From NCBI RefSeq assembly GCF_002951615.1, contig NZ_CP019062.1:2170001-2234000 (forward strand): a stretch of 64,000 nucleotides of DNA. Direction: 5' to 3'. Shown one piece after another: positions 28,563-58,346 of this stretch (the first letter of the stretch is position 1; each line of letters opens with the position of its first letter). The notes beneath the pieces are model-generated. The model had not been told where the DNA came from. It worked only from the letters and a program-made list of their open reading frames with translations, and searched no databases. Source of the DNA: Rahnella sikkimica. Its GTDB lineage: Bacteria; Pseudomonadota; Gammaproteobacteria; Enterobacterales; Enterobacteriaceae. Position numbers and translations under genes: made by a program.

Positions 28563-29918
28563 ATGGCAAATACCAATACCTCCTGGTTTCCAAAGTGGCG
28601 TAAAAGAGAAGGCAATCTGGATGGCGCCGTTATTGCGCCGGACGAACGGCTGCCGTTAGGGCCGACGGTGATTATGGGGCTGCAACATACCGTCGCCATG
28701 TTCGGCGCAACGGTATTAATGCCGTTGCTGATGGGGTTTGACGCCAACATGGCGATCCTGATGTCCGGCATCGGCACCCTGCTGTTTTTCCTGGTGGTCG
28801 GCGGACGCGTGCCGAGCTATCTCGGATCGAGCGCGGCGTTTGTCGGTTTGGTGATTGCGGTGACCGGCTACAGTGGCCACGGCGCGAACCCGAATATCGG
28901 CGTGGCGCTCGGCGGCATTATTGCCTGCGGCGTCATTTATACGCTGATTGGTTTTGTGGTGATGGCCGTCGGCACGCGCTGGATTGAACGCCTGATGCCG
29001 CCGGTCGTGACCGGTGCGGTAGTGATGGCGATTGGTCTGAACCTCGCGCCGATTGCCATTAACAGCGTTTCGGCGTCGTCGTTTGACAGCTGGATGGCGG
29101 TGGTGACCGTGCTGTGTATCGGTTCGGTGGCCGTTTTCACCCGCGGGCTGGTGCAGCGCTTACTCCTGCTGCTCGGGCTGGTGGCGGCGTATCTGATTTA
29201 TATGCTGGTCACAAACGTCCTGGGGCTGGGCGCACCGGTGGATTTCACCGCCGTCACACAGGCTGCGTGGTTTGGTCTGCCAACCATCACCACGCCGGTG
29301 TTCAGCACCCACGCGATGCTGATGATTGCGCCGGTGGCCGTGATTCTGGTGGCCGAAAATCTCGGACACATTAAAGCAGTCGCGGGCATGACCGGTAAAA
29401 ACCTCGACCCGTACATGGGCCGCGCGTTTGTCGGCGACGGGCTGGCGACATTACTGTCAGCCTCCGCGGGCGGAACCGGCGTGACCACTTACGCAGAAAA
29501 CATCGGCGTCATGGCGGTTACAAAAATTTATTCCACGCTGATTTTCGTCGCTGCTGCGATTGTTGCCATTGTGTTGGGCTTCTCGCCCAAATTTGGTGCA
29601 CTGATCCACACCATTCCCGGTCCGGTATTAGGCGGCGCATCGATTGTGGTGTTCGGTTTGATTGCCGTCGCCGGTGCGCGCATCTGGGTACAAAACCAGG
29701 TGGATCTGGGTCTTAACGGAAATCTCATCATGGTTGCCGTCACGCTGGTACTGGGCGCAGGCAACTTTACCCTGAGTCTGGGCGGCTTCAGCATGGGCGG
29801 CATCGGCACGGCGACGTTTGGCGCAATCTTGCTGAACGCCTTCCTCAGCCGCAGCAAACAGGTTAAAACGCAGCCGGAAATAAAAACTGGCACAGAAGCT
29901 GCATTAAAAGATCACTGA
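28563..29918 (+). CDS. rutG: Uracil permease RutG (NCS2 family)
   Basis: A 451-residue uracil/xanthine-family permease with 12-14 hydrophobic segments. The N-terminal GLQHTVAMFGATVLMPLLMG and the central VAENLGHIKAVAGMTGKNLD plus GGTGVTTYAENIGVMAVTKI are the conserved NCS2 substrate and signature regions. It imports pyrimidines for the Rut pathway. It is the last gene of the operon and is followed by a strong terminator. Confidence 0.95.
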   Translation: MANTNTSWFPKWRKREGNLDGAVIAPDERLPLGPTVIMGLQHTVAMFGATVLMPLLMGFDANMAILMSGIGTLLFFLVVGGRVPSYLGSSAAFVGLVIAVTGYSGHGANPNIGVALGGIIACGVIYTLIGFVVMAVGTRWIERLMPPVVTGAVVMAIGLNLAPIAINSVSASSFDSWMAVVTVLCIGSVAVFTRGLVQRLLLLLGLVAAYLIYMLVTNVLGLGAPVDFTAVTQAAWFGLPTITTPVFSTHAMLMIAPVAVILVAENLGHIKAVAGMTGKNLDPYMGRAFVGDGLATLLSASAGGTGVTTYAENIGVMAVTKIYSTLIFVAAAIVAIVLGFSPKFGALIHTIPGPVLGGASIVVFGLIAVAGARIWVQNQVDLGLNGNLIMVAVTLVLGAGNFTLSLGGFSMGGIGTATFGAILLNAFLSRSKQVKTQPEIKTGTEAALKDH

Positions 29919-29958
29919 CGACCTCAGTTTCTCCTTAGCTCATCATTTTTGATGATCG

Positions 29959-30006
29959 CCAGCGGTTATCCGGTCCACCCGTCCGGATTAACCGCTGGTT
30001 TTTTTC
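29959..30006 (+). terminator. Terminator of the rut operon
   Basis: CCAGCGGTTATCCGG and CCGGATTAACCGCTGG pair over 15 positions with one bulge, followed by a run of seven T. It separates the rut operon from the next monooxygenase cluster. Confidence 0.92.
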
Positions 30007-30197
30007 TTTCTGTTTCCTGCCATTTCCTCTCCTGCGTCCCCTTTTCCTGCTTTTGCTGGATTTCGGCAAACCAATGCACATTTCCTTCGTTCACCTCCCT
30101 TTTAAATTGGTTTGTTATGGCACCAGCACTTTCGTTCTAAAGCACGCCGGAAGTGATTCATCTGCCAGCAATCACCAAAAATAAAAAGGGTCTCACT

Positions 30198-31838
30198 ATG
30201 CACATTCTTCGCCGGAGAAACGCGGTCACACGCGCACTGGCTTTAGGGGTATTGATCACCAGTTCTTACGCCGTTTTTGCCGCCGATTCAACGCCGGTTC
30301 AGGGCGGAACGCTGGTTTATCTCGAACAACAGGCACACACCAACTTATATCCTCCGGCGGGAGGTTTTTACCCGAACGGCGGCATCCTGAATCAGATCAC
30401 CGACAAGCTGACCTATCAGAACCCGAAGACGCTGGAAGTCGAACCGTGGATTGCCGAATCCTGGAGCTTCAACGCCGACAAAACCGAATACACCTTCAAA
30501 CTGCGTCCGGGCGTGACCTTCTCCGACGGCACGCCGCTTGATGCCAACGCCGTAGCGAAAAACTTCGACACCTACGGGCTGGGCAACAAAGAACGCCATC
30601 TGCCGGTTTCCGAAGTGATTAACAACTACGACCACAGCGAAGTGGTTGATCCGCTGACCGTGAAGTTCTACTTCAAAAAATCCTCACCGGGCTTCCTGCA
30701 AGGCACGGCGACCATCGGCTCCGGGCTGGTATCACTGAGCACGCTGGATCGCAATTTTGATGCGCTGGGCGACGCGACGCACATCATCGGTTCCGGCCCG
30801 TTCGTGGTCAGCAAGGAAACGCTCGGTCGTGAAGTCGATCTGACGGCGCGCAAAGATTACAACTGGGGGCCGAAAAACCTCAAACAGCAGGGTCGCGCTA
30901 ATCTCGACGTCATCAAAGTGATCGTCACCGGTGAAGACAGCGTGCGTATCGGCGCGCTGCTGGCCGGTCAGGCAGATTTCATCCGTCAGGTTCAGGCGTA
31001 TGACGAGAAGCAGGCCAAAGACCAGAACTTCCCGATTTATGCCGCGCCAACCAAAGGCGTGAACGACAGTATTTCGTTCCGTCCGGACAACGCGCTGGTG
31101 TCTGATCTGAAAGTCCGTCAGGCGCTGCTGCACGCCACCAACAGCAAACAGGTGGTCGAAACGCTGTTCTCGCCAAACTATCCGCAGGCCACGTCCGTCA
31201 TCGCCAAAACGGCTGCCGGTTACGTGGATCTGAGCAACAAACTCACTTATGACCCGACGCTGTCGAAAAAGCTGCTGGACGAAGCGGGCTGGAAACCGGG
31301 CCCGAACGGCCTGCGCCAGAAAGACGGCAAAACGCTGTCACTGACCATTTATGAATCCCTGCCGCAACCACAGAACAAAGAAGTCTTGCAGCTGATTTCG
31401 CAGCAGTGGAATCAGGTCGGCGCGAAGCTGAACATCCTGGCCGGTGACGCGGGCAGCCGCGTAGCCGACAACCTGGATCCGGAAAAAACGCCGGCGAACG
31501 TGGTGGAAGTCGGCCGCGCCGATCCGGACGTCATCAAAAGCTCCTTCTACCCGACCAACCGCGATGCGCTGCTGCAAAAAGGCGGCCTGAGCAGCAAGGT
31601 GAAAAGCTTCCGTGACGACAAACTGAATGACCTGCTGGTGGCAATTTCAGCCGAAGTAGATCCGAAAAAACGTCTGGCGCTGGCCGGTGACGTGCAGAAC
31701 TACCTGCTCGATCAGGCTTACGTCATTCCGATTTTCGAAGAGCCACAAGTTTATGCCGGAGCACCTTACTTTAAAGGCGTGAGCTTTGAAGCCGTTGGCC
31801 GTCCAAGCTTCTACGCCGCATGGCTTGAAAAGCACTAA
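30198..31838 (+). CDS. ABC transporter substrate-binding protein, peptide/opine/nickel family
   Basis: A 546-residue periplasmic protein of the SBP_bac_5 family with a Sec signal peptide (about residues 1-29, ending AVFAAD). Family landmarks include ITDKLTYQNPKTLEVEPWIA and GPFVVSKETLGREVDLTAR. The ATG at 30198 is set by AAAAAGGGTCTCACT and by the signal peptide; an upstream start would add 15 polar residues. It heads a seven-gene unit with two permeases, a fused ATPase and three enzymes. It resembles the KPN_01854-type binding protein family, which I recall as a marker of such clusters. The ligand is unknown. Confidence 0.88.
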   Translation: MHILRRRNAVTRALALGVLITSSYAVFAADSTPVQGGTLVYLEQQAHTNLYPPAGGFYPNGGILNQITDKLTYQNPKTLEVEPWIAESWSFNADKTEYTFKLRPGVTFSDGTPLDANAVAKNFDTYGLGNKERHLPVSEVINNYDHSEVVDPLTVKFYFKKSSPGFLQGTATIGSGLVSLSTLDRNFDALGDATHIIGSGPFVVSKETLGREVDLTARKDYNWGPKNLKQQGRANLDVIKVIVTGEDSVRIGALLAGQADFIRQVQAYDEKQAKDQNFPIYAAPTKGVNDSISFRPDNALVSDLKVRQALLHATNSKQVVETLFSPNYPQATSVIAKTAAGYVDLSNKLTYDPTLSKKLLDEAGWKPGPNGLRQKDGKTLSLTIYESLPQPQNKEVLQLISQQWNQVGAKLNILAGDAGSRVADNLDPEKTPANVVEVGRADPDVIKSSFYPTNRDALLQKGGLSSKVKSFRDDKLNDLLVAISAEVDPKKRLALAGDVQNYLLDQAYVIPIFEEPQVYAGAPYFKGVSFEAVGRPSFYAAWLEKH

Positions 31839-31854
31839 CAGGCAGGAGTGAATC

Positions 31855-32814
31855 ATGAACCGATACGTTAGCGGTCGTTTTGGGCAGGCTTTGCTGGTGT
31901 TGTGGGCGGCGTTTACCGTCTCCTTCATTCTCCTGCAAGTGCTGCCGGGCGATGCCATTCTGATTAAATTCCAGAACCCGGACATGGGGCTGAGCCCGGC
32001 GCAAATCGCGGACATGCGCGCGGCCTACGGCGCGGATGTGCCGCTGGTGCAGCAATATCTGCACACGCTGGGGAATTTCCTGCGCGGGGATCTGGGCTAT
32101 TCGATTCAGGCTGGCGTACCGGTCACTGAATTACTCAGCAGCAACTTTCCGCCGACTTTGCGGCTGGCGCTGATGGGCTTCGCACTGGCCGCCGTGGTGG
32201 CCTTTGCGCTGGCGTTTACCTCCAGCCTGCTGCATTTCGGCTGGCTGAAAAACCTGTTGCAGTCGGTGCCGTCGCTGTTTATCTCCATTCCGACTTTCTG
32301 GCTCGGCATCGCGTTGATTCAGTTTTTCTCTTTCCATCTGCGCTGGATCCCGGTGATCAATCCGGGGGAATGGGTCGGGCTGATTCTGCCGGTGGTGACG
32401 CTGGCCGTACCGATTTCCGCACCGCTGGCGCAGATCCTGATCCGCAGCATTGATCAGGTGCAAACCCAGCCGTTCGTCGCCGTTGCCCGCGCCAAAGGGG
32501 CCAGCCGCAGCGGCGTGTTGTGGCGTCATGTGGCGCGCAACGCCCTGCTTCCGGTGCTGACTATCGCCGGTTTGCTGTTTGGCGAACTGATCGCCGGGGC
32601 GCTGATCACCGAAACGGTATTTGGCCTGAATGGCCTCGGTCAACTGACACAGCAGGCGGTGAACAATCAGGACGTCGCGGTTTTACAGGCGATTGTGGTG
32701 ATTTCCGCCGCCGCTTTTGTCGGCATCAACTTACTGGTCGATTTGCTTTATCCGCTGCTCGATCCGCGCCTTAAAGCCAATGCCTCGAAAAACTCAAAGG
32801 GAGCCACCGCATGA
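31855..32814 (+). CDS. ABC transporter permease (DppB-like)
   Basis: A 319-residue inner-membrane subunit with six hydrophobic helices and the permease coupling motif (EAA-like) region VARAKGASRSGVLWRHVARNALLPVL around residues 205-230, listed here by its position. The N-terminal FGQALLVLWAAFTVSFILLQ and GDAILIKF fit the DppB/OppB family. It starts 17 bases after the binding-protein gene with CAGGAGTG upstream and overlaps the next permease by four bases, so it is clearly co-transcribed. Confidence 0.9.
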   Translation: MNRYVSGRFGQALLVLWAAFTVSFILLQVLPGDAILIKFQNPDMGLSPAQIADMRAAYGADVPLVQQYLHTLGNFLRGDLGYSIQAGVPVTELLSSNFPPTLRLALMGFALAAVVAFALAFTSSLLHFGWLKNLLQSVPSLFISIPTFWLGIALIQFFSFHLRWIPVINPGEWVGLILPVVTLAVPISAPLAQILIRSIDQVQTQPFVAVARAKGASRSGVLWRHVARNALLPVLTIAGLLFGELIAGALITETVFGLNGLGQLTQQAVNNQDVAVLQAIVVISAAAFVGINLLVDLLYPLLDPRLKANASKNSKGATA

Positions 32815-33674
32815 GCAGCTTACCGCTGGGTAAAAGCATACTTTCCGTGCCCGCCACACAGCGCCGCCGCTGGAAACCGGCCCGTTTACAGCCGGGGCTG
32901 ATCATCGCCTGGCTGGTGATCGCGACCGTGATTTTATGGGCGGTCGCGCCCGGCTGGTTTACCGATTACAGCGGCACTGAAGGCATCGCGGGCGCGCAGC
33001 GTCTGGCGCCGCAGGCCGGCCACTGGCTGGGCACCGATCAGCTCGGCCGTGACGTGTACGCCCGCATCGTTTACGGCGCGTCGCATTCACTCTCCGGCGC
33101 ACTGGTCGCCGTGGCGCTCGGGCTGGTGTTCGGCACCGCATTAGGGCTGGCAGCCGGGGCCAGCGGCGGCATTGTTGACGCCATTGTCATGCGCATCAAC
33201 GACGTGTTGCTGTCGATTCCCGGTCTGTTGTTGTCGCTGAGCGTCATCATTTTGCTCGGCTTCGGCACGGTTCACGCGGCGATTGCCGTCGGGGTCACCT
33301 CCGTCGCCAACTTCGCCCGCCTCGCCCGCGCCGAAGTGGTATTGGTGCGCCACAGCGATTACGTCGAAGCGGCCTACGGCAGCGGCGGCACCTTCTTCTC
33401 GATCCTCTGGCGGCACATTTTGCCGAACTCGCTGACGTCGGTGATTGCCTTCTCCGCACTGCAATTTGGCAGTGCAATTCTGGCGATTTCCACCCTGAGT
33501 TTCCTTGGTTACGGCACACCGCCGCCAACGCCGGAATGGGGTTTACTGATTGCCGAAGGCCGTAACTACATTTCAACCGCCTGGTGGCTGACCACCTTCC
33601 CCGGTGTCGTCGTGGTGCTGGTGGTGCTTTCCGCCAACCGCATCAGCCAGTCATTACGCAGGAGAACACGATGA
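32811..33674 (+). CDS. ABC transporter permease (DppC-like)
   Basis: A 287-residue inner-membrane subunit of the DppC/OppC family with an N-terminal cytoplasmic stretch, TM1 (about residues 30-50), the periplasmic APQAGHWLGTDQLGRDVYAR family signature and five further helices. The coupling loop includes RHSDYVEAAYGSGGTFFSIL. Start and stop codons overlap their neighbours by four bases (ATGA) on both sides, which indicates coupled translation within the import operon. Confidence 0.9.
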   Translation: MSSLPLGKSILSVPATQRRRWKPARLQPGLIIAWLVIATVILWAVAPGWFTDYSGTEGIAGAQRLAPQAGHWLGTDQLGRDVYARIVYGASHSLSGALVAVALGLVFGTALGLAAGASGGIVDAIVMRINDVLLSIPGLLLSLSVIILLGFGTVHAAIAVGVTSVANFARLARAEVVLVRHSDYVEAAYGSGGTFFSILWRHILPNSLTSVIAFSALQFGSAILAISTLSFLGYGTPPPTPEWGLLIAEGRNYISTAWWLTTFPGVVVVLVVLSANRISQSLRRRTR

Positions 33675-35290
33675 GCACACAGGCGACTTTCAATAGCCCC
33701 ACCGCCCCCGTTCTTGAGCTGGATAACGTGACGATTGCCTACGACGGCAAAGCGGTAGTCCACAACGTCTCGTTTTCCATTAATGCCGGAGAAGTGCTGG
33801 CGCTGGTGGGTGAATCGGGTTCCGGTAAAACCACCACCGCGCAGTCGATCATCGGCCTGCTGGCGGAAAACGGTCATATCGAACAGGGCGAAATCCGCCT
33901 GAACGGCACCGACATCAGCCAGTGGTCGCAGAAGCGTCTCGACGCCCTGCGCGGCGCACGCATCAGCCTGATCCCGCAGGATCCGACCAGTTCGCTGGAT
34001 CCGGTCAAAACCATCGGTTCGCAGGTTGCCGAAATTCTGGATATCCACCAGCGCCTGCCGCGTGTTCAGCGCGACGCCCGCGTGGTGGAACTGCTGACCC
34101 GCGTCGGCCTCACGCACCCGGAACAACGCGCGAAACAGTATCCGCACGAACTTTCCGGCGGCATGAAACAGCGCGTGCTGATTGCGATTGCCATTGCGCT
34201 GCAACCGGCGCTGATCATTGCCGACGAACCGACCAGCGCGCTCGACGTCACCGTGCAAAAACGCATTCTGGATTTGATTGACGATTTGCGCCGCGAATCC
34301 GGCACCGCCGTTTTGCTGGTCACGCACGATCTGGCGATTGCCGCCGAACGCGCCGACCGTTTGCTGGTATTCCGTAACGGCAAAGTGCAGGAACAGGGCG
34401 TGACGGCGGAAGTGCTGAACGCACCGAAAAGCGAATACACCCGCCAGCTGTTTGCCGACGTTCCTGCCCTATCAGGCCGTCACCGTGCGCATATTGCCGC
34501 CGTCGCCGAACCGGTGCTGGTGGTCGAAAATGTCACCCATGATTTCTCACTGGGCGGCAAACATCAGGCGGCATTTCGCGCCGTCGATAACGTCTCGTTC
34601 AGCATTCCGCGCGGCACCACACATTCTCTGGTCGGCGAATCCGGCTCGGGTAAAACCACGCTCGCACGCATTCTGCTCGGTTTCCAGAAACCGGACAGAG
34701 GCCGCGTACTGATCGACGGCGAAGACATCACGCGCCTCAGGGGCGAAGCGCTGCGTCAGGTGCGCCGTAAAATTCAGCTGGTGTATCAGAACCCGTTCGC
34801 CTCGCTCGATCCGTCGCAGACTTTGTTCAGCGTGATTGAAGAACCGCTGCTGAACTTCGAAAAAATACCGTCAGCGGTGCGCCGTGAACGCGTTCTGGAT
34901 ATCGCCCGCCGCGTGGCGCTGCCGGAAGAACTGCTGGGCCGCAAACCGCGTGAGCTTTCCGGCGGCCAGCGTCAGCGCGTGGCGATTGCCCGCGCGCTGA
35001 TCCTTGAACCGAAAGTGCTGGTGCTCGACGAGGCGACTTCGGCGCTCGACGTCACCGTACAGGCGCAAATCCTGACCCTGCTTCAGCAGCTTCAGGATTC
35101 ACTCGGCCTGACCTATTTATTTATCTCGCACGATCTGGCGACCGTCCGGCAAATCTCCCACAGCGTCTCGGTGCTCAACCGCGGGCAACAGGTGGATTCC
35201 GGCAACGTGGAAGACGTGTTTGCGCTGCCTTCCAGCGATTACACGCGTCAGCTGATCGATGCGATCCCCGGCCGCCACCGCGCCGCCTGA
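33671..35290 (+). CDS. Fused dual ATPase subunit of the peptide/opine-type ABC importer
   Basis: A 539-residue protein joining DppD-like and DppF-like ATPase domains. Each half has Walker A (GESGSGKTT), a signature (LSGGMKQR in the first, LSGGQRQR in the second) and Walker B (ALIIADEPTSALD and VLVLDEATSALD). The two domains meet near residues 265-285. Both nucleotide sites look intact. The ATG at 33671 follows GGAGAACACG and overlaps the permease stop; longer frames have no support. Such tandem fusions resemble GsiA and YejF. Confidence 0.92.
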   Translation: MSTQATFNSPTAPVLELDNVTIAYDGKAVVHNVSFSINAGEVLALVGESGSGKTTTAQSIIGLLAENGHIEQGEIRLNGTDISQWSQKRLDALRGARISLIPQDPTSSLDPVKTIGSQVAEILDIHQRLPRVQRDARVVELLTRVGLTHPEQRAKQYPHELSGGMKQRVLIAIAIALQPALIIADEPTSALDVTVQKRILDLIDDLRRESGTAVLLVTHDLAIAAERADRLLVFRNGKVQEQGVTAEVLNAPKSEYTRQLFADVPALSGRHRAHIAAVAEPVLVVENVTHDFSLGGKHQAAFRAVDNVSFSIPRGTTHSLVGESGSGKTTLARILLGFQKPDRGRVLIDGEDITRLRGEALRQVRRKIQLVYQNPFASLDPSQTLFSVIEEPLLNFEKIPSAVRRERVLDIARRVALPEELLGRKPRELSGGQRQRVAIARALILEPKVLVLDEATSALDVTVQAQILTLLQQLQDSLGLTYLFISHDLATVRQISHSVSVLNRGQQVDSGNVEDVFALPSSDYTRQLIDAIPGRHRAA

Positions 35291-35321
35291 GTCAGCACAT
35301 GAAAAAGAAAAGAGGGACATT

Positions 35322-36398
35322 ATGAGCAGCAAACGTCTTGGGTTTTTCACCCGACTTCTGGATAACACCAGCGCGCAGGAACGTTACCGACTGGCGACGG
35401 AGCAAATCATTCACGCCGAGCAGCTGGGTTTTGACTCCGCGTGGGTCGCGCAGCACCATTTTCACGAAGCGGAAGGCGGCCTGCCCGCTCCGCTGGTTTT
35501 CCTGGCGCAGGTTGCGGCGCACACCCGTTTTATCCGTCTCGGCACCGGCGTGATTACGCTGCCGATGGAAAATGCGGTGCGCGTGGCAGAAGACACCGCC
35601 GTGCTGGATTTACTCTCCGGCGGACGTCTTGAAGTCGGGCTGGGCTCCGGCGGCACGCCGTCGTCATTCCTGCCGTTCGGCTTTGAAAGCAGCGAGCGCG
35701 GCGCGGTGTTTAGCCATAATCTGCAAACCCTGCTGACCGCGTGGCGCGGTGAACCGCTGGCAGGCACCGATAACCGGCTGTATCCGGCGGCACCGCATCT
35801 GGAAAAACGCGTCTGGCAGGCCACGTTCTCGGTGGACGGCGGCGCGCGTGCCGGGAAATCCGGCGACGGGCTGATGCTTTCGCGCACCCAGCCGCGCCCG
35901 GCGAATGCGCCAGATCTGCGTCTCGACGAACTGCAAAACCCGATTATCGATGCCTATCTCGACGCGCTGCCGGAAGGCGTTGCGCCGCGCATCATGGGTT
36001 CACGCACGGCGTTTGTGACGGAAAACGGTGACGAAGCCCGCGAACTGGCGCAAAAAGGTTTACGCCGTCAGGCCGAAAATCACCGCGCCAGCGGACAAAT
36101 TGTGAAAGGCGATACGCTGGACGATTACATCCGCACGTTTGACGTGCATCTCGGCACTGCCGCACAGGTCACCGCCACGCTACAGGCCGACACTGCGCTG
36201 GCCCGCGTCACCGATCTGGCGTTTCAGGTGCATTCTATCGATCCGCCGCACCCTTACATTTTGCGTTCCATTGAACTGATTGCGCGTCACGTCGCGCCCG
36301 CTCTCGGCTGGGTTCGCCGCACGCCGCAGCGCCACGTTTCCACCGCTTCCGCCGACCCTACGTTATCTAAGGCTGCATCTACACAGGACAACTTATGA
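35322..36398 (+). CDS. Luciferase-like FMN-dependent monooxygenase
   Basis: A 358-residue LLM-class flavoprotein. Typical features are GFDSAWVAQHHFHEAEGG (about residues 37-54), RLGTGVITLPMENAVRVAED and GGRLEVGLGSGG, which form the TIM-barrel flavin and substrate pocket. It is distant from RutA and seems to belong to the group I recall as the KPN_01858 family, whose substrate is unassigned. AGAGGGACATT precedes the ATG. It ends in a four-base overlap with the CMD/AhpD gene. No flavin reductase is encoded in this operon. Confidence 0.87.
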   Translation: MSSKRLGFFTRLLDNTSAQERYRLATEQIIHAEQLGFDSAWVAQHHFHEAEGGLPAPLVFLAQVAAHTRFIRLGTGVITLPMENAVRVAEDTAVLDLLSGGRLEVGLGSGGTPSSFLPFGFESSERGAVFSHNLQTLLTAWRGEPLAGTDNRLYPAAPHLEKRVWQATFSVDGGARAGKSGDGLMLSRTQPRPANAPDLRLDELQNPIIDAYLDALPEGVAPRIMGSRTAFVTENGDEARELAQKGLRRQAENHRASGQIVKGDTLDDYIRTFDVHLGTAAQVTATLQADTALARVTDLAFQVHSIDPPHPYILRSIELIARHVAPALGWVRRTPQRHVSTASADPTLSKAASTQDNL

Positions 36399-37504
36399 CC
36401 ACTTATTCGACTGACCTGCTGGAAAAACTGGCTGACATTACGCCGTCTTCTGAACTGAAACAAGCGCGTGACACCCGCGACGCCGCGACCCGTCACGCGC
36501 AGGGCAGCTACGATGCGCTGTTTACCGAACAGGACGGCGTGGATTTCTCGCTGGCCGAACGTTTGCGTTTAGCGCAAAACGTGGCGCGCTGGCACGGCGA
36601 TTCACAGCTCACCAATCACTATTCCGAGCGTTTGCAGGATTTGCCGGACATCGACGAAACCGCCCGTCTCGACGCCGCGCTGACCCACGGCGAGCGCCTG
36701 AGTTTCAAACCCGCCAGCGCCACGCCAGCGCACTTGCAGGCACTGAAAAAAGCCGGCTGGTCGGTGGATGCCATCGTCACGATTTCGCAGCTGATTGCTT
36801 TCGTCAGTTTCCAGAGCCGTGCGCTGCGCAGTTACCGTCTGATTGGCGGCAAACCGGTGGAAAACGCCAGCAATAAACCGGTCGGCGCCGCGTTCTGGCG
36901 CACTGAGCCGAACACCCACAGCGGCCGCGACGCGCCGCAGGCTTTCACGCAGGAGGAACTCGGCTGGGAACCGTGGATCCCGTCCAAAAAGCTGGAGGAA
37001 TTTGATGAAGCCCAGCAGGTGATTCTGGCGAAGTTCGGCCATACGGATTCCGACTATTTCCGTCTGTTAGGCCGCAACCTGCCGGTGCTTGAGCAACGCA
37101 CGCTGACCGACAAAGGCATTTTCTACACCTCCGGCGGCCTGCCGCGCAAAGAGCGCGAACTGGCGGCTACCGTGGCGAGCAAAATCAACGGCTGTATTTA
37201 CTGTGCGTCGGTGCATTCGCGCAAAGCCAGCCAGCTTTCCAAACAAACTGAAGACGTTCAGCGGCTGATCGACACCCCGCCGGGCGGCATTCTCAGCAAA
37301 GATCAATCCCCGCGCTGGCAGGCTGAAATTGATTTCGCCGCCGCGCTCTCCGCCACGCCGCCGGTCGCCTCGCCGGAGCACGTTAAGGCGTTGCGCGATC
37401 AGGGTTTGAGCGAACTGGAAATCGTCGATCTGGCGCAGTCTGTGGCGTTCTTCGCCTGGGCAAACCGCCTGATGTTAACGCTGGGAGAACCGTTTAATGA
37501 CTGA
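36395..37504 (+). CDS. Fused CMD-domain / alkylhydroperoxidase-like protein
   Basis: A 369-residue protein with two AhpD/carboxymuconolactone-decarboxylase-type halves. The first (about 1-185) has the helical core GWSVDAIVTISQLIAFVSF but no Cys pair. The second (about 190-369) has LPRKERELAATVASKINGC leading into C267-IY-C270-ASV-H274, the CxxCxxxH redox motif of AhpD. Elsewhere these halves are, as I recall, separate genes (Avi_7170 and Avi_7169 types); here they are one chain. It overlaps the monooxygenase and the VOC gene at its two ends. It may detoxify a peroxide or process the monooxygenase product (inference). Confidence 0.85.
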   Translation: MTTYSTDLLEKLADITPSSELKQARDTRDAATRHAQGSYDALFTEQDGVDFSLAERLRLAQNVARWHGDSQLTNHYSERLQDLPDIDETARLDAALTHGERLSFKPASATPAHLQALKKAGWSVDAIVTISQLIAFVSFQSRALRSYRLIGGKPVENASNKPVGAAFWRTEPNTHSGRDAPQAFTQEELGWEPWIPSKKLEEFDEAQQVILAKFGHTDSDYFRLLGRNLPVLEQRTLTDKGIFYTSGGLPRKERELAATVASKINGCIYCASVHSRKASQLSKQTEDVQRLIDTPPGGILSKDQSPRWQAEIDFAAALSATPPVASPEHVKALRDQGLSELEIVDLAQSVAFFAWANRLMLTLGEPFND

Positions 37505-38357
37505 TTCACAGACTTCTCAACGCCTGATACCGCAGCTCGATCACGTGGTGATTAACGTCGCCGAACAGCTTAACGGTGCGGAGCAGCAGTTCCGCCGTCT
37601 CGGTTTCCAGCTCACGCCGCGCGGCCATCATTCGCTCGGATCCAGCAATCATCTGGCGATTTTCGGCGAAAACTATCTGGAACTGCTTGGGTTTGAGCCG
37701 GGCAATGCGCATACGCGTCAGGATCTCTGGCAGGCCCCGCTCGGCCTCACCGGTCTGGTGTGGAAAACGCAGAATTCGAACGCGGTGTTTGATCATCTGC
37801 AACAGCAAAATATTGCGGGTTTCGCACCGGCAGAATTCTTCCGTCCGGTAGCGCTTAACGATGGCACATCGCCCAACGCCCGTTTCCGCACCGTCCCGCT
37901 GGCCGCTGACCGCGTGCCCAATGGCCGCAGTTTCTTCTGCCAGCACCTGACCCCGGAACTGGTGTGGCGCACCGAGTGGCAAAACCACCCGAACGGCGTC
38001 GCGGACATCACCGGTTTTGTGATCTCCGCCGCCTCCCCGCAGGCCGCCGCTAAAGTGTACGGCGAACTGTTCGGCGCAGAAGCCTTGCAAACGAATGCTG
38101 AAGGCGTGACATTGCGCGCCGGTCGTGCAACTGTCCGGTTTGTGACGCCAGAGCAGGCGCAGGCTGAATTTGGCATCGTGCCGGAGGGGGAAAACGGCAG
38201 TGCGCGGATGATCGGGTTGGAGTTTGCGACCCGGTCGCTGGATGCGGTGCGCAATAGCCTGCGCGTGGGGGAAATTTCGTTTAGTGACTTAACCCGTGGG
38301 GTTTTGGTTCGCGCAGCGGATTCACTGGGAGTGGCGGTCAGATTTAGCGAAGAATAA
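37497..38357 (+). CDS. VOC-superfamily (glyoxalase-like) protein
   Basis: A 286-residue protein with an N-terminal vicinal-oxygen-chelate module (QLDHVVINVAEQL, about residues 13-25, then SNHLAIFGENYLELLGFEPG) and a second, weaker module from about 165 onward (ADITGFVISAASPQAAAKVYG). The His and Glu in these stretches are the likely metal ligands. It overlaps the preceding gene by eight bases and is the last gene of the unit. Lyase, isomerase or dioxygenase chemistry is possible; the substrate is unknown. Confidence 0.8.
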   Translation: MTDSQTSQRLIPQLDHVVINVAEQLNGAEQQFRRLGFQLTPRGHHSLGSSNHLAIFGENYLELLGFEPGNAHTRQDLWQAPLGLTGLVWKTQNSNAVFDHLQQQNIAGFAPAEFFRPVALNDGTSPNARFRTVPLAADRVPNGRSFFCQHLTPELVWRTEWQNHPNGVADITGFVISAASPQAAAKVYGELFGAEALQTNAEGVTLRAGRATVRFVTPEQAQAEFGIVPEGENGSARMIGLEFATRSLDAVRNSLRVGEISFSDLTRGVLVRAADSLGVAVRFSEE

Positions 38358-38396
38358 ATTCCAGGTCGTGGGCATCGGCCCACACCGACTAAAACC

Positions 38397-38479
38397 TTGG
38401 GTTACCACCCAAAAGGGCTTCAAGGTCAACACCTTGGGCTCGCCGCCCAAACACTGCAAGACCTTGGGTTGCCACCCAA
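38397..38479 (+). repeat. Left hairpin array, three units
   Basis: The units TTGGGT-TACC-ACCCAA (38397-38412), TTGGGC-TCGCC-GCCCAA (38434-38450) and TTGGGT-TGCC-ACCCAA (38464-38479) begin 37 and 30 bases apart. Compensatory changes (T-A against C-G) at the sixth pair keep the stems paired. Confidence 0.85.
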
Positions 38480-38485
38480 ACCGGC

Positions 38486-38517
38486 CTCAAGGGTGGTCTA
38501 TCGCCACCACCCTTGAG
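38486..38517. repeat. 12-bp perfect stem-loop after the left array
   Basis: CTCAAGGGTGGT (38486-38497) and ACCACCCTTGAG (38506-38517) pair perfectly around an eight-base loop. The other module has the analogous AGGGCGCG...CGCGCCCT stem at 38956-38979, different in sequence but in the same relative place. Confidence 0.85.
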
Positions 38518-38989
38518 AATCCCGGGCTCTTAAACTGCGCGCTGCCGCTCGCTGGCTATGTTTCAGGTGCCACAGCTATTGCCGCGAAAACTTGCCGCTA
38601 CGCGGTTCCCTTACTCGGTTTCGAGCCATAGGTCTCGAAACACTTCGCTCGGCAAGCTTTCTGAAAGCGGCCACTGGCTATGTAATTCAGCATGTTTTTT
38701 GAAAGCGGCCGGAGGCTTATCTAAATTCAACGGCATTTTTAAGTAGCAATCAGCGGTGAGGTTGCGAATTAGAAAGTTTGTGGCCGCTTTCAAAACGACG
38801 TTGAGTGAGAGGTGAGAAACGGCGAGAGTCTTTTCTGAGCAGGTTCGAACCCGAAGCGAAAGTACCGCGCAGCGGCGGCGTTTGCGGCACTAGCCGGAGT
38901 TGCTGAAACATAGCCAGCGAGCGGCAGCACGCAGTTGAAAAGCGCGGGTGTCCAGAGGGCGCGCGCGTTAACGCGCCCTTTGGGCCAGT

Positions 38990-39090
38990 TTGGGCGGCGA
39001 GCCCAAGGTTTTGCGGGTTTGGGTGGCAACCCAAGGTTTTGCAGGTTTGGGCTGCAACCCAAGGTCTTGCCGTTTTGGGCCGCAACCCAA
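38990..39090 (-). repeat. Right hairpin array, four units
   Basis: Units begin at 38990, 39019, 39047 and 39075, spaced 28-29 bases. Each has a TTGGG...CCCAA stem. The 38990 unit is the exact reverse complement of the second left unit over about 22 bases. Intervening sequence is GGTTTTGC-like and nearly constant, unlike CRISPR spacers. Confidence 0.85.
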
Positions 39091-53161: not shown

Positions 53162-53791
53162 TTAGTACATTTCACCTGAGCATAGGTTATCTGCAGATGC
53201 TGAGTCCATTACAGTTTCGTTACCTAAGGCACAGAAACATTGCGAAAAGTTGCCATTCTTGCATGATCTAAGTGTGAATATATGCACAATCGATTGTATA
53301 GCGCTAATCCCAGCAAGCCCCTTGATACTAAAGTGAGCACCTGAACTTCTAGGGTTAATTATATTCCCCTCAATATCTAAGGATGCTCCTTGACCTTTTA
53401 TTCCGGCTCCTGTCCCTGGTAAATGCGCATGGGAATGTGGTGTAGGATCTATTTTATGGCCCTGTGGATTTAGTCTGTACGCATTCGAACCATTATCATA
53501 AAAGGTGTGGGTATCTGGACTATTTGTATTATTCGGCGGATATGGGCCTGTTAATCCTCCTACTGGCTCCATCATGACATTCCCTCTGCTGTCTCCTATG
53601 AACCGGCCCACAGGCTGCCCTGTAATCGGATCTATTGTACATTGTTGATTTGCAGCCAGACCCATAGGGTCAATGCTTTGCAACGGATCCAACGCATAAC
53701 CATATAAATTCCATCCCCCTCTCAACCCAATCGGATCCTGCGTAATATACCGTCCCTGCATCGGGTCATAATAACGGTGACGGTTGTAATA
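53162..53791 (-). pseudogene. Displaced (orphan) Rhs C-terminal toxin tip
   Basis: A fragment of about 200 residues starts with the last bases of an Rhs core ([32 protein letters not shown]) and continues into a toxin tip that has lost its own gene start. The tip contains [40 protein letters not shown] and SGAHFSIKG, resembling polymorphic toxin type 24. No ribosome site precedes the only internal ATG (53761). A TAG at 53792-53794 in the same frame, also the stop of the upstream immunity gene, separates it from the main Rhs. It can be moved onto the main gene by recombination in the shared core. Confidence 0.72.
53709..53790 (-). repeat. Rhs core fragment repeated at 54726-54811
   Basis: About 80 bases here and at 54726-54811 are nearly identical (CTCAACCCAATCGGATCCTG and GGTCATAATAACGGTGACGG in both). 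Identity ends sharply after TTGTAAT, where the main gene continues and the orphan is truncated. This is the homology that lets tips be exchanged. Confidence 0.85.
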
Positions 53792-54217
53792 CTACCGAGT
53801 GCATTTGGAGTTTAAATAATATTCAACAACTTTATCAAATCCTTCATTTCTTTCAATTTCATATAAATCAGTGCATTTCAATATTAGATTATCTGAAGAA
53901 CTTAGCATGTAAATCCCCTCTGGAATTGAGTCGTCGCTGATATGGACATTTGTAATTATCCAAAAGTACGGAAACTGGTTACTTTTAATTCTTATACCAA
54001 GTAGATCGTACTTTCCATATATATATTTTTTTAGATAAATAAGTTCTCTTGATTTGTTTTTATTTTTATCTCTGTATGTTAATTCAACACCTTGCATGGC
54101 AGCATAGATAGGCTTGTTGGCGAGCTCACCATGATTAAGCATATAGTAGATGTAGTGTCCTCCCCAACATACAAGGGCGATGGCTGATAATAACAGGAAA
54201 CTACATCCTTTATTCAT
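53792..54217 (-). CDS. Candidate immunity protein for the main Rhs toxin
   Basis: A 141-residue protein with an N-terminal membrane anchor or signal (GCSFLLLSAIALVCWGGHYIYY) and a polar, Lys/Tyr-rich rest (YRDKNKNKSRELIYLKKYIYG) ending in a Cys-containing tail. It overlaps the rhs stop by eight bases, which is the standard toxin-immunity coupling. A membrane-linked immunity protein fits a toxin active in the periplasm or at the membrane. The base composition is AT-rich compared with the Rhs core. I do not recognise a named family. Confidence 0.7.
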   Translation of the reverse strand: MNKGCSFLLLSAIALVCWGGHYIYYMLNHGELANKPIYAAMQGVELTYRDKNKNKSRELIYLKKYIYGKYDLLGIRIKSNQFPYFWIITNVHISDDSIPEGIYMLSSSDNLILKCTDLYEIERNEGFDKVVEYYLNSKCTR

Positions 54218-57200
54218 GATTGAACTCCGAAAAATATGAAGAAATCAAAGTGCCCTGATTGATTTGAATCCCTGTATTTCCAGCAAGCATCCCTGCTACA
54301 AAACCTATTGTCGGAGGGAGTTGTGGCAACATCCCTTGAGATATAGCATCTGTCATGATTTTTTGTCCAACATTTGCTTTTGTAAAAGAATCTGCAACCA
54401 TCGTTGAGCAATTGTGCTTAGCTATGTTGTATTCAACGCCATTAGGGTAGTTTTCATTAATATAATTAATCATTGCTTCTTCTTGTAATGGCGTTGTTTT
54501 AATGACATATGCAGTGATGTTTCTATTTTCTGACTGTGTTCTTAAATATTCAGTGGTGCTGCTTCCATATTTATTTATTGTCCCATAACTAAATATACCT
54601 TTCCCAGAAAAAGCGAGTGCTGTATGTCCCACCGGATTCCCTTTTGTTGGGCCACCAGCCAATACCAGAGTATCTAATCCCATGGAATCAATTGAACTCA
54701 CCGGAACATTGTTAACATAGGAATAAAGATTCCATCCTCCTCTCAACCCAATCGGATCCTGCGTAATATAGCGTCCCTGCATCGGGTCATAATAACGGTG
54801 ACGGTTGTAATGCAACCCCGATTCTTCGTCGTAATGCTGGCCCTGCATTCTTATTAACTGGCGCAGATTGTACGGGTTGAAAACATCGACCGGGTTGCCC
54901 CAGACGTCCATCACAGCGCTCCATTCCACCTTGCTGGTTTTGTGATTAATCAGCGCAATGGGTGTGCCGAGGTGGTCGCAGTGATAAAGGTGCAGTTTCA
55001 GCGCGTCACCCTGCGGCAGCGGGTCGAGCCACAGCGCGAGGTTTTCGGCTTTCAGGCCGACGGCGTCCAGCCACTGCTGATTGTCGTCGCTGAGGTGATT
55101 TTTGCGGATGTCCTTTTCGATTTCATTCAGCCGCAGATGGAGTTCGGTCGGCAACGCGCTGCCGTTTTCTTCTTCGAGCTTTTCTGCCAGCGAGCGGTGG
55201 CTGTCTTCCATACGGGCATGTTCGGCGCGCAGCAGCGGGACGAAGCTGTTCGGGTGATAAATCGTGTGAAGCTGGATGTCGCGGTTTTCGGTCAGCACCA
55301 GCCGGTCGCCGTCCCAGCCGAACCAGATGTTCTGGGTTTCTGGCTGCCCGGACTGCGGATTGATTTGCGTGACGAGTTTGCCGACGCGCCGCCCGAGCGG
55401 GTCGTAGATATACCGCGCCTGCGTCTGAATCTGGCCGTCCTCTTCCATTTTCAGACGCGTCAGCCGGTGCGCCTGGTCGTAGGCGAAGTGGCTGATGGCC
55501 CCGCGCGGTGCTTCCCGCCAGCCGGCGCGGTACGGGCGTTTTTCCGTCAGGTTGCCAAATTTGTCGTGTTCATAAATATACCGCTCATCGCGCTGGATGC
55601 GGTTTTGATACCAGACCGGCAGCGTGTCCGTTAACGGCGTATTCAGGTCGGGATGCGTACAGTTGCGGTTACCGGCGGCGTCGGTGACGGTGGCGAGAAA
55701 ACCGTCCGGCGAGCTGACGCTGTTCAGGCGACCGGCTGGCGTGTAAGCGTAATGATGGTCACCGAGTCCGGTGGTCATCTGCGTCATCTGACCGGCGGCG
55801 TTGTAGTGATAATGGCGTTTCAGGTTCGGGTGGCCGACGTCCGGCGTGTGCTGCGCGGCGAGTTGTCCGGTGAGTGAATAGGTATTTTCACTCTGCCAGC
55901 CGTCGCTAAACCGGCGGGTGGTTTCGCGGTGCAGCCTGTCGCGGGTGAATTCCAGCAGCACGTCATCGCCGAGTTTTACGCCGAGCAGGTGGCCGGGGCC
56001 GTAGGTCTGCCAGCGGATTTCCGGCAGGCCGTCGTAGCGGACGGCGGATTCAAAGCCGCGCACGTCGAAGCCGCGCACCGCGGTGTGCTGCCAGAGCAGG
56101 TCTCCGTGGGCGTTGCGGATTATCTGCCGTTCGCCGTTAAGGTTGTCATTCGCGTCGTACTGAAAGCGCACGCTGACCAGATGGGTTTCGCTGCGGTGGG
56201 CGGTTTCGGTGACGCGCCCGGCGGCGTCATACTGCCAGAGCACGTCGTCCGGACCGTCGTTCGTTTCGGGGCGCTGCTGGCGGATAAGCTGGCCTTCATC
56301 ATCGTAATGCCAGTGCGTCATCAGCCCGGCATCGTCGCTGCGGATTAGCTGACCGGCGATGTTGTACTGATAACTCTGCACGCGGCCGTCAAAGCCGACC
56401 TCCTGAATCAGCCGGTCCATGACGTCGTAGCTGAATTTCGTGTCAGCGCCGTTTTCGTTAACCAGCCGCATCAGCCTGCCCGCGCTGTCGAATTCAGTCT
56501 GACGGTTCAGCCCGCCTTCGCTCTGTGCGGTTGGATTCCCGCGCTCGTCGTAGGTTTGCGTGGACTGACTGCCGTCTGGTCGGGTGACGGTGATGACGTC
56601 GCCCGCCGCGTTATATTCCCAGTGTGTTTTTGCTCCGCTGGCATCTTCGCGCGAAATCCGACGCCCGCGCGCATCGTACGCAAAGCGGGTTTTCATTCCT
56701 TCTTCGTGCTGGATTTCGACCGGCTGACCGTCGCGGTTATAGCGGTATGACGTATTAAACCCGGAGCAGTCAGTGAAGGCAATCAGCAAGCCGGCCGCGT
56801 TCCATTCCAGCGTCTGACGCCCGCCCGCCGCGTCTTCGGTAGCGCATGGCAGCGCACTTTTATCACCTGCATAGTGATAGCGGCGGGTCTGGTGCAGGGC
56901 GTCGGTTTCAGCGGTCAGACGCCCCAGTGCATCATATTCCCTGCTCACGCGGCGTCCGTCGGGCGCGGTGCTGCAAACCAGCTGCCCTTGTTTGTTGTAG
57001 TAGAACTGGCTGCGTTTTTCGCCGCCCGGATGCAAAGTCGCGCCCAGCGTGCCATTGGCCGGGTTGTGGTGAAATTCGGTGGTGCGCCCGGAAGCGTCGG
57101 TTTGCGATATCAGCTGGCCGCGGTTGTTGAACGCGCTTTGCGTGCAGCTGCCGTCGGCCTGCTCAAGTCTGACTACGCGGCGTAATCCCTTTTCGCCCTC

Positions 57201-58346
57201 GAAGTGATAGACGTGTAAGCGCCCGAGGCTGTCGGTGACGCGGGTCTGGTTTTTGGAGTATTCAAACTGATAGCTCAGGCCGCCGGGATTGACCTGCGAA
57301 ATGACTTTTCCGGACGCATCGTACACGTAGCGGGATGCCGGGCGTCCGGCGTAGCGGTGGGCAATCATCAGACCGGTGCCGCTCAGTTCCTGATGCCAGT
57401 CAAACTCGCGAACCACTTCGCCCGCGCGGTCGCAGACGGTTTTCAGTTCGCCGCGTGGCGTGAAGTCGTTGCGCACCAGCGGTCTGGTCGGCAAGTCCGA
57501 AAAGGCTAAATCTTTCGTCAGCCAGACGGCGGAAAGCCGCACGCCGCCATCTTCGCCCCAGCCGTTATCCGGCACGGGTTTGAAGTCTGGTACTGTCATC
57601 AGCTCAAGGCGAAAGCGCCGTCTACAACTGTCGGTGACGCCGGTAATCTGCCCGGCGAATTCGCCTTCGGCGTCGCGATGATAGTTAAGCTGATTGCCGA
57701 AACGGTCGGTCAGCCCGAGCAATAACCGGCTGGCGGGCAGCGGGCGCGGCAGCACGTCTTCTGAGGTTTCGGGCAACTGCACGCAGCCCAAAATCCACCA
57801 CGGGCCGGTGGCGTCATTGGCGACAAAATAGTAATGCGGGCTGTTGCGGAGTTCGTCCGGCAGCGCCTGCCACAATTTCCCGAGCGGATGAGCATCTATT
57901 TGCTTATCGGCACCGCCGCGCGCCAGCCAGAGATTTTCGCTGTGGCTGAACACAATTTGCCCCGGCGGCAGGTGATGAAAATGAATGCTCCGCCCCGAAT
58001 TATCGTTAAGGATGAGTTCGTCCGCGCGGATTTGCAGGCGGATATCCGCCGCCGCCGACCATCCGGGGCCGAACATCCCGACCGGCGCGGGCGTGTCCGT
58101 TTTATAGCTGCTGTAAGCACGCGAAAGGACAAACGGTAACGACGCGGGCAGCGCGATATCGGTCTCGCCGGGCAGGACTTTTGCGCCGAGCGACGGGTTA
58201 ACGGGGCTGCCTTCCACCACCCCGCCGGGACACACCGAACACGCCACACCGGTCGGTGCGCCAATCATCACGCCCAGAGAACCCTGAACAATCGGGCCGC
58301 CGATGGCGGTGTTATCGAACTTTCGGGCGGCAGGGAATCCGGTCAT
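54210..58346 (-). CDS. Rhs polymorphic toxin with an NlpC/P60- or LRAT-like C-terminal tip
   Basis: A 1378-residue Rhs protein. An N-terminal PAAR-like/GAPTGVACSVCPGGVVEG region (about 1-60) precedes a DUF6531 segment and a long series of YD repeats (about 300-1150), which form the toxin-enclosing cocoon. The core ends at QDPIGLRGG (about 1200), and the variable tip begins near 1225. The tip has H1241 (VGHTALAF), H1311 and C1313 (AKHNCSTMVADSF), the order expected of a circularly permuted papain-fold enzyme. The tip is AT-rich against a GC-rich core. No VgrG or other type VI genes are in this window. Confidence 0.88.
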   Translation of the reverse strand: MTGFPAARKFDNTAIGGPIVQGSLGVMIGAPTGVACSVCPGGVVEGSPVNPSLGAKVLPGETDIALPASLPFVLSRAYSSYKTDTPAPVGMFGPGWSAAADIRLQIRADELILNDNSGRSIHFHHLPPGQIVFSHSENLWLARGGADKQIDAHPLGKLWQALPDELRNSPHYYFVANDATGPWWILGCVQLPETSEDVLPRPLPASRLLLGLTDRFGNQLNYHRDAEGEFAGQITGVTDSCRRRFRLELMTVPDFKPVPDNGWGEDGGVRLSAVWLTKDLAFSDLPTRPLVRNDFTPRGELKTVCDRAGEVVREFDWHQELSGTGLMIAHRYAGRPASRYVYDASGKVISQVNPGGLSYQFEYSKNQTRVTDSLGRLHVYHFEGEKGLRRVVRLEQADGSCTQSAFNNRGQLISQTDASGRTTEFHHNPANGTLGATLHPGGEKRSQFYYNKQGQLVCSTAPDGRRVSREYDALGRLTAETDALHQTRRYHYAGDKSALPCATEDAAGGRQTLEWNAAGLLIAFTDCSGFNTSYRYNRDGQPVEIQHEEGMKTRFAYDARGRRISREDASGAKTHWEYNAAGDVITVTRPDGSQSTQTYDERGNPTAQSEGGLNRQTEFDSAGRLMRLVNENGADTKFSYDVMDRLIQEVGFDGRVQSYQYNIAGQLIRSDDAGLMTHWHYDDEGQLIRQQRPETNDGPDDVLWQYDAAGRVTETAHRSETHLVSVRFQYDANDNLNGERQIIRNAHGDLLWQHTAVRGFDVRGFESAVRYDGLPEIRWQTYGPGHLLGVKLGDDVLLEFTRDRLHRETTRRFSDGWQSENTYSLTGQLAAQHTPDVGHPNLKRHYHYNAAGQMTQMTTGLGDHHYAYTPAGRLNSVSSPDGFLATVTDAAGNRNCTHPDLNTPLTDTLPVWYQNRIQRDERYIYEHDKFGNLTEKRPYRAGWREAPRGAISHFAYDQAHRLTRLKMEEDGQIQTQARYIYDPLGRRVGKLVTQINPQSGQPETQNIWFGWDGDRLVLTENRDIQLHTIYHPNSFVPLLRAEHARMEDSHRSLAEKLEEENGSALPTELHLRLNEIEKDIRKNHLSDDNQQWLDAVGLKAENLALWLDPLPQGDALKLHLYHCDHLGTPIALINHKTSKVEWSAVMDVWGNPVDVFNPYNLRQLIRMQGQHYDEESGLHYNRHRYYDPMQGRYITQDPIGLRGGWNLYSYVNNVPVSSIDSMGLDTLVLAGGPTKGNPVGHTALAFSGKGIFSYGTINKYGSSTTEYLRTQSENRNITAYVIKTTPLQEEAMINYINENYPNGVEYNIAKHNCSTMVADSFTKANVGQKIMTDAISQGMLPQLPPTIGFVAGMLAGNTGIQINQGTLISSYFSEFNHE
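54726..54811 (-). repeat. Rhs core 3' end, the parent copy of the orphan homology
   Basis: This stretch encodes the last conserved core residues of the main rhs gene and matches 53709-53790. See that entry. Confidence 0.8.

Follow-up and report, generated by a model that had tools for sequence, protein, structure and literature searches.

Gene content and boundaries of the unit

We analyzed a window of 64,000 nucleotides from Rahnella sikkimica (contig NZ_CP019062.1, positions 2,170,001 to 2,234,000 of the forward strand), whose 5.53 Mb genome is in four contigs and whose closest named relatives are Rahnella, its proteins being 97–99% identical to those of R. laticis. In the list of open reading frames (ORFs) of the window, seven ORFs on the plus strand span positions 30198–38357 and encode an ABC importer (binding protein, two permeases and a fused ATPase), a luciferase-like monooxygenase (LLM), a fused CMD-AhpD protein and a VOC protein. 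An initial annotation, made from the sequence alone, had listed genes of these kinds on one strand, and all seven are found. It had also described neighbors as overlapping or nearly touching, which is right because the overlaps are 4, 4, 4 and 8 bases and the gaps 16 and 31 bases. The unit and the elements preceding it, all on the plus strand, are the following:

29958..29999, plus strand: terminator-like hairpin with a T run after it (-29.8 kcal/mol, z -6.6; stability not equaled by any of 200 shuffles)
30061..30100, plus strand: promoter element conserved in relatives as TTTnCnGCaATnnnTAGC followed by AATTnCTTnGTTC, its position in the window assigned by eye
30198..31838, plus strand: substrate-binding protein, TIGR04028 (KPN_01854 family), 867.7 bits against a cut-off of 468.5, kept in 75 of 76 loci
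31855..32814, plus strand: DppB/NikB-like permease (PF00528), best NCBIfam model Opp2B, 262.3 bits, under its cut-off of 350
32811..33674, plus strand: DppC/NikC-like permease (PF00528), best NCBIfam model Opp2C, 232.5 bits, under its cut-off of 300
33671..35290, plus strand: fused DppD-DppF-like ATPase with two nucleotide-binding domains (PF00005 in two stretches)
35322..36398, plus strand: LLM, TIGR04027 (KPN_01858 family), 567.3 bits against a cut-off of 412.9
36395..37504, plus strand: fused protein of a CMD half (TIGR04029, 201.6 bits, cut-off 100.75) and an AhpD half (TIGR04030, 304.0 bits, cut-off 233.15), both cut-offs exceeded
37497..38357, plus strand: accessory VOC/glyoxalase-like protein (PF13468, 106.1 bits against a cut-off of 25.1)

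The start of the binding-protein gene was set at 30198, the mechanical ORF beginning at an upstream GTG (30153). The fused ATPase and the LLM start at ATG codons within longer ORFs, and the LLM search queries began one codon earlier (35319).

The rut genes lie upstream of the unit. RutG was confirmed by the NCBIfam scan, and the names RutC, RutD and RutF rest on sequence and gene order. The hairpin at 29958–29999, which a simple terminator pattern scan did not return, is the predicted end of the rut unit and the upstream boundary that separates the seven genes from rutG. Downstream of the unit are intergenic repeats and then genes on the opposite strand. The seven genes look like a separate unit because of the hairpin after rutG and these downstream repeats and opposite-strand genes. 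A sigma-70 scan of positions 29850–38700 returned no promoters, with 2.3 expected.

Protein families of the importer, monooxygenase and CMD-AhpD protein

The NCBIfam scan placed three of the proteins above the cut-offs of four models (TIGR04027, TIGR04028, TIGR04029 and TIGR04030), which bears out the KPN_01854, KPN_01858 and Avi_7170 families named in the initial annotation. The cluster that these models describe (KPN_01854/KPN_01858/Avi_7169/Avi_7170) has the same gene set as the unit in the window. The models name no function, and the VOC protein matches none of them; indeed, it has no NCBIfam match at E <= 0.001.

The earlier label of the binding protein as 'peptide/opine-type' was a loose one, as the protein fits TIGR04028 but scores far under the cut-offs of NikA (164.6 bits versus 393), CntA (106.3 versus 800), GsiB (114 versus 594) and DppA (74 versus 1005). 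NikA-type proteins are its best solved relatives in a search of the PDB. When aligned to DppA, GsiB and NikA, the binding protein has a gap facing the first aspartate of the DppA motif GDNGDPDN, which we take to bind the peptide amine, and this argues weakly against a plain dipeptide as the ligand. The AlphaFold model of the protein is of low confidence (pLDDT 54.5). Both permeases, of the Opp/Dpp/Nik class, are below every cut-off among the models listed. The fused ATPase exceeds the cut-offs of NikD (415.5 versus 318.7 bits), NikE (415.2 versus 332.55), CntD (399.3 versus 380), CntF (401 versus 385) and a dipeptide subfamily, all of these whole-protein scores being sums over two domains, and is under that of YejF (471.8 bits, cut-off 834). 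Outside its own family, the LLM matches general luciferase-type models in the NCBIfam scan, the best at 88.5 bits and all under cut-off.

In the CMD-AhpD protein, residues E255, C267, C270 and H274 of the AhpD half are invariant among 16 sequences, and the CMD half has no invariant cysteine in the same set. The AhpD catalytic pattern is E-(12)-C-x-x-C-x3-H, which the fused protein fits. A structure prediction (pLDDT 84.2) shows both halves to be helical. Its top Foldseek match, spanning the full length, is Sestrin2 (E 2.3e-4, TM 0.55), a likeness of architecture only because the identity is just 12%; other top matches are single AhpD-like proteins that cover part of the model. The catalytic half of Sestrins is the first, whereas here it would be the second. 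The AhpD-like peroxidases 3c1l, 2prr and 6k40 resemble the C-terminal half, which is likewise AhpD-like with a CxxC motif.

Conservation and distribution

We compared the best 80 of at least 541 relatives from a scan of one genome per species, in all of which the LLM is at least 64% identical. The order binding protein-permease-permease-ATPase-LLM-CMD-AhpD is kept in 75 of the 76 loci with room on both sides, the sole exception (L105) being a locus where the LLM and CMD-AhpD adjoin a different ATPase. Conservation of gene order outside its own genome, which the initial annotation had set in advance as a test, is thus found and goes far past what chance would give. At any position in the locus, 25 of the 80 have a VOC match and 10 an M20 amidohydrolase match. 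The first six genes are a genuine conserved unit, and the VOC gene is optional. Hence, the seven-gene importer/monooxygenase unit proposed earlier, in which a compound would be imported, oxidized and detoxified, is supported in part: the importer, LLM and CMD-AhpD protein form one conserved unit, but the VOC protein is not a core member. The fusion of CMD and AhpD is likewise true of the window and of Enterobacterales, but the two are separate matches, annotated as two genes, in alphaproteobacterial loci (Rhizobium, Ensifer, Microvirga, Inquilinus and relatives).

Two proteobacterial classes share the conserved operon, and many hosts of the six-gene unit are plant- and soil-associated bacteria. 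Within the host family (198 genomes, host included) it is a patchy trait: 25 genomes have the LLM (E <= 1e-80), 26 have the binding protein (E <= 1e-120) and 24 have both, and three LLM matches contain stop codons. The LLM is also on 123 plasmid records, 64 of them from Pantoea. A class-wide search of 274 genomes returned the own genome alone above cut-off.

In Paracoccus denitrificans (L122:13473-17209), the copy is apparently decayed, with the LLM, CMD and AhpD retained; ORFs at 11.4–17.7 kb were judged by eye to be the second permease and a shortened ATPase, and the binding protein and first permease are not annotated in 31 kb, where the gene table is incomplete. This locus, which has sarcosine and betaine genes, was set aside as a counter-example since the cluster looks decayed. 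In Rouxiella (L055:12254-17371), a second importer stands directly behind the cluster, and its binding protein is a diverged TIGR04028-like one that scores below cut-off (261 bits); the gene order of loci L050 and L057 resembles that of this second importer.

A promoter element shared in part with tau and ssu operons

The element TTTnCnGCaATnnnTAGC-nn-AATTnCTTnGTTC precedes the binding-protein gene, at about -80 to -140, in 33 of the 43 Enterobacterales loci with an upstream region, which by our own reading of the listing are the 26 training loci plus 7 near-duplicates. The matrix was trained on 26 of the 44 Enterobacterales loci. The other 18 are the near-duplicates, one locus without an upstream region (L050) and 10 with weak or misplaced best matches that were left out (L051, L052, L054, L057 and six Pectobacteriaceae). 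Training loci L065 and L079 score just ~1 with the left-half matrix.

The tau and ssu operons are controlled by Cbl and CysB. We compared the element with the regions upstream of 19 tauA and 23 ssuE loci of the same genomes, with E. coli added to both sets, after removal of one tauA (L219) and one ssuE (L233) sequence prior to the tests; the host genome has ssuE, and tauA was not found there at the threshold used. The left 20-base matrix scores 7.86 on the 19 tauA and 7.34 on the 23 ssuE upstreams, as opposed to 1.63 and 1.62 for column-permuted matrices, none of 1000 of which reach the score on either gene. None of 300 sets of dinucleotide shuffles reaches it either. Scores of at least 9 are found in 9 of 20 tauA and 8 of 24 ssuE sequences versus 6% of 232 other intergenic upstreams, the E. 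coli K-12 sequences scoring just 6.5 (tauA) and 7.9 (ssuE). With all sequences included, z is 5.65 for tauA and 5.71 for ssuE, and the maximum among 37 control gene groups is 4.89; the group that reaches it consists of five Serratia sequences, nearly identical to one another, of a gene judged by eye to be glycosyltransferase-like. For the full 34-base matrix there is sharing with ssuE (none of 1000 permuted matrices reaches the score), and a 38-base matrix is shared weakly with tauA (12 of 300 shuffle sets reach the score). The sharing of the left half is good but not conclusive evidence for a putative common sulfur regulator.

As a regulon predictor, a short version of the pattern is unusable because it occurs at 2 places in the own genome versus 10 for the reversed control; one of the two is just upstream of ssuE, whose sequence partly supplied the pattern. 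An earlier 13-base pattern had 308 places versus 235 for its control.

Genomic neighborhoods of the cluster

In part of the relatives, the genes around the cluster are of sulfur type. For example, in A. ampelinum S4, to which the name Avi_7170 presumably belongs from older locus tags, tauA and its transporter are near the unit, as are an SsuD-like LLM (best models alkanesulfonate monooxygenase, 223 bits, under cut-off) and two acyl-CoA-dehydrogenase-like proteins (best model sulfur_SfnB, 119.5 and 261.3 bits, under the cut-off of 430.9). In Rhizobium tumorigenes, tauA flanks the unit on one side and a sulfonate transporter on the other, and MetQ genes are found farther out; in Rhizobium NXC24, the unit stands between a sulfonate transporter and an NtaA/DmoA LLM. 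Serratia M24T3 and two Rouxiella likewise have NtaA/DmoA LLMs adjoining the cluster (the one of R. badensis by clustering only), and in R. dioscoreae such an LLM lies directly downstream, within less than 25 bases. Two of these LLMs are ~35% identical to that of P. dispersa, so it is the family that recurs and not one gene. MetQ-like proteins, under the MetQ cut-offs, are near the cluster in Rouxiella and Acerihabitans.

An M20 amidohydrolase lies between AhpD and VOC in Pantoea sp. SOD02 and P. vagans, and just a short 'peptidase dimerization' piece does so in P. dispersa. In the latter, a divergent operon faces the cluster and encodes an MsnO8 LLM, an M20 amidohydrolase, an NtaA/DmoA LLM, a binding protein, a GNAT protein and an amino-acid permease. 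Both LLMs and the M20 protein are over cut-offs; two amino-acid models, one of them for cystine, match the binding protein at scores below theirs. This composition resembles that of the B. subtilis pathways for S-alkylcysteine and S-succinocysteine, as described in two reports (PMC10863075; PMC9706529).

On plasmid pPag3 of Pantoea vagans (L127:231-6751), the cluster comes directly after a siderophore-type set (lysine N6-hydroxylase, aminotransferase and GNAT) and an MFS transporter.

Predicted role in sulfur scavenging

The neighbors in part of the relatives and the shared promoter half-element point to a putative role in sulfur supply. The initial annotation had merely hinted at such a role with the word 'desulfonate', and these two lines of evidence now suggest it. 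We consider the operon rather likely to be a sulfur-starvation scavenging module. Under this model, sulfur limitation would act through a CysB/Cbl-type activator to switch the operon on via the element at 30061–30100. The ABC system, an importer by family, would bring in a small compound, possibly an organosulfur one. The LLM, presumably with FMNH2 from a flavin reductase encoded elsewhere, would oxidize it at the sulfur or the adjacent carbon and lead to cleavage of the C-S bond, an S-substituted cysteine or related thioether being the most likely class of substrate. The CxxC of the AhpD half could then reduce a reactive product (sulfenic acid or peroxide), and the VOC protein, together with the M20 amidohydrolase of some relatives, may finish the released fragment. 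A more specific version, in which the unit is a novel sulfur-acquisition system of plant- and soil-associated proteobacteria whose new LLM family cleaves the C-S bond of an imported cysteine-type thioether and whose AhpD protein, Sestrin-like in its two halves, acts on the resulting sulfenic acid as a reductase, is tentative and on the whole doubtful; in B. subtilis, the counterpart of the sulfenic-acid reduction step is carried out by other proteins.

Known sulfur systems offer partial parallels. The B. subtilis cmo/yxe genes (CmoO, CmoJ, YxeK) combine an LLM and a reducing step (cmo) with an ABC importer (yxe), as here (PMC10863075; PMC9706529). Their M20 and GNAT partners recur in the Pantoea relatives of the cluster, whereas the seven-gene unit of the window contains neither a GNAT acetyltransferase nor an M20 deacetylase. 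The window LLM also differs in that it is under the cut-off of MsnO8 (TIGR03558, 70.3 bits versus 166.95), the type to which CmoO presumably belongs, and has no NtaA/DmoA match among the families listed, and the importer is Opp/Nik-type. The E. coli ssuEADCB and tauABCD operons have an importer and LLM (ssu) and the promoter half-element in common with the unit. Unlike ssu, the unit has an LLM with no TIGR03565 match among the families listed, an Opp/Nik-type importer and no NADPH-FMN reductase among its seven genes.

The association with sulfur-type neighbors was assessed in the flanks of 40 genomes, with 20 kb windows located ~30–110 kb away on the same contig as controls. In a second count, which masked less around the core, shortened the controls to 13 kb and added MetQ post hoc, sulfur-type genes were found at 13 of 40 loci versus 3 of the 40 controls (p 0.005, one-sided Fisher test), and at 10 of 37 versus 3 of 37 (p 0.03) when L060, L063 and L092, each a query source or nearly identical to one, were left out. 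M20 or VOC genes were at 15 of 40 loci and at none of 40 controls (p 6e-6). These p values are generous because the queries were drawn from the cluster's own neighborhoods and some loci are close kin, and the support that they give is modest. SfnB-like genes were compared by eye with LLM positions in 43 genomes, and among the matches listed few are near the cluster.

A number of results weigh against a role in sulfur scavenging, the post hoc changes and the generous p values of the flank counts among them. The first count (sulfonate, LLM, SfnB or M20 genes; wider core mask, 501 kb of flanks versus 800 kb of controls, rows counted by reading) gave 9 of 40 loci versus 5 of 40 controls (one-sided p 0.19). 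Annotated sulfur genes are absent near the cluster in Klebsiella (L121), Roseateles (L120), Erwinia E602 (L117), S. americanum (L125) and Chimaeribacter (L126), as well as in Rhizobium RCAM05350 (L123), which has a sparse gene table, and the decayed Paracoccus locus. The promoter element was not recognized in the six Pectobacteriaceae loci. With one sequence per lineage, the left-half z drops to 4.61 and 4.44, just under the control maximum. The left-half signal is partly that of a near-palindrome because the reverse-complemented matrix scores 5.24 on tauA and 6.70 on ssuE. The right half is not shared in the permuted-matrix test (p 0.12 and 0.40), although none of 300 shuffle sets reaches its score on tauA (112 of 300 do on ssuE), and the whole 34-base matrix is not shared with tauA (p 0.31). 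For the LLM itself, SsuD (TIGR03565), NtaA/DmoA (TIGR03860) and SfnG are absent from the best 25 of the 26 families matched at E <= 0.001. As far as our searches reach, no sulfur chemistry of the LLM family is in print, and a literature search for a sulfur or regulatory link gave none about the cluster among the matches listed. Searches by locus tags and family names returned two papers that treat the family (PMC7194016; PMC11354265) and no other among the matches listed.

Alternative explanations

The LLM matches PDB entry 8K74 (E 3.7e-137 over 324 residues, phmmer), the protein PCX02514 of Klebsiella sp. PCX. This close relative was chosen by luciferase analogy and published as a poly(acrylic acid) monooxygenase, with chain cleavage, binding by isothermal titration calorimetry and a 1.97 A structure reported (PMC11354265). 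It raises the prospect that the LLM oxidizes long carboxylated chains as part of a polycarboxylate carbon-source pathway. However, the report gives a kcat of 0.00214 per s in vitro and activity with NADPH but not with NADH, FAD, FMN or, unlike bacterial luciferases, FMNH2 (PMC11354265). Conservation of the operon over two proteobacterial classes also speaks against such a pathway. Furthermore, poly(acrylic acid) is a synthetic polymer whose size exceeds what an ABC importer can take up. We therefore regard the polycarboxylate pathway as highly improbable, and oxidation of the polymer by PCX02514 as a side activity at best. The words sulfur and ABC transporter are absent from the main text of the report on it (PMC11354265). 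The initial annotation had called the substrate unknown and had named a homologous cluster of proven function as a point against itself. The slow in vitro activity published for PCX02514 touches both statements in part (PMC11354265).

Uptake of a metallophore or opine-like chelate, to be degraded by the LLM and AhpD in an iron or nickel system, would agree with the NikA-type relatives of the binding protein and with an ATPase above the NikD, NikE, CntF and CntD cut-offs, though two domains add up in those scores and the binding protein is far below the cut-offs of NikA and CntA. Pantoea copies near siderophore-type and FhuE genes fit this explanation too. KPN_01858 is reported among the proteins higher under iron limitation in Klebsiella, but TauC rises in the same experiment, a joint rise that we count for sulfur scavenging (PMC7194016). 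The idea of a Fur box yielded no strong site: the best match is 9/19 in the window. Among 24 relatives the best matches are 10–13/19, and their mean (11.25) nevertheless exceeds that of shuffles (10.57), with 0 of 100 shuffle sets reaching it. We judge the chelate explanation quite unlikely. Nitrogen or carbon scavenging from a plant-derived, sulfur-free N-acyl or amine compound is unlikely as well. The amidohydrolase or amidase neighbors, the many plant-associated hosts and, in Rahnella, the adjacent rut pyrimidine nitrogen genes are in its favor, but the rut adjacency is confined to 7 Rahnella loci among the 80 relatives' loci and the promoter half-element is common to sulfur operons.

If the sulfur-starvation assignment is true, all four models TIGR04027–TIGR04030, now 'hypothetical equivalogs' without function, become testable. 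It would also put in doubt the reading of the LLM as a polymer degrader and add the importer-monooxygenase-AhpD design to the known sulfur-scavenging systems.

Other features of the window

The repeats downstream of the unit, at 38378–39090, are of the CCTTGGGTTGCCACCCAAA type and include an inverted-repeat pair with 152-nt arms that are 72% complementary. Allowing up to 2 mismatches, the CCTTGGGTTGCCACCCAAA pattern occurs at 39 places in the own genome versus 1 for the reversed control, as in a REP-like family. Farther downstream, the minus strand encodes an Rhs-type repeat protein (54210–58346), after which comes an orphan Rhs core-plus-tip fragment (53162–53761), both named by eye from the sequence. 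The GC minimum of the window (0.439) is at 52–54 kb.

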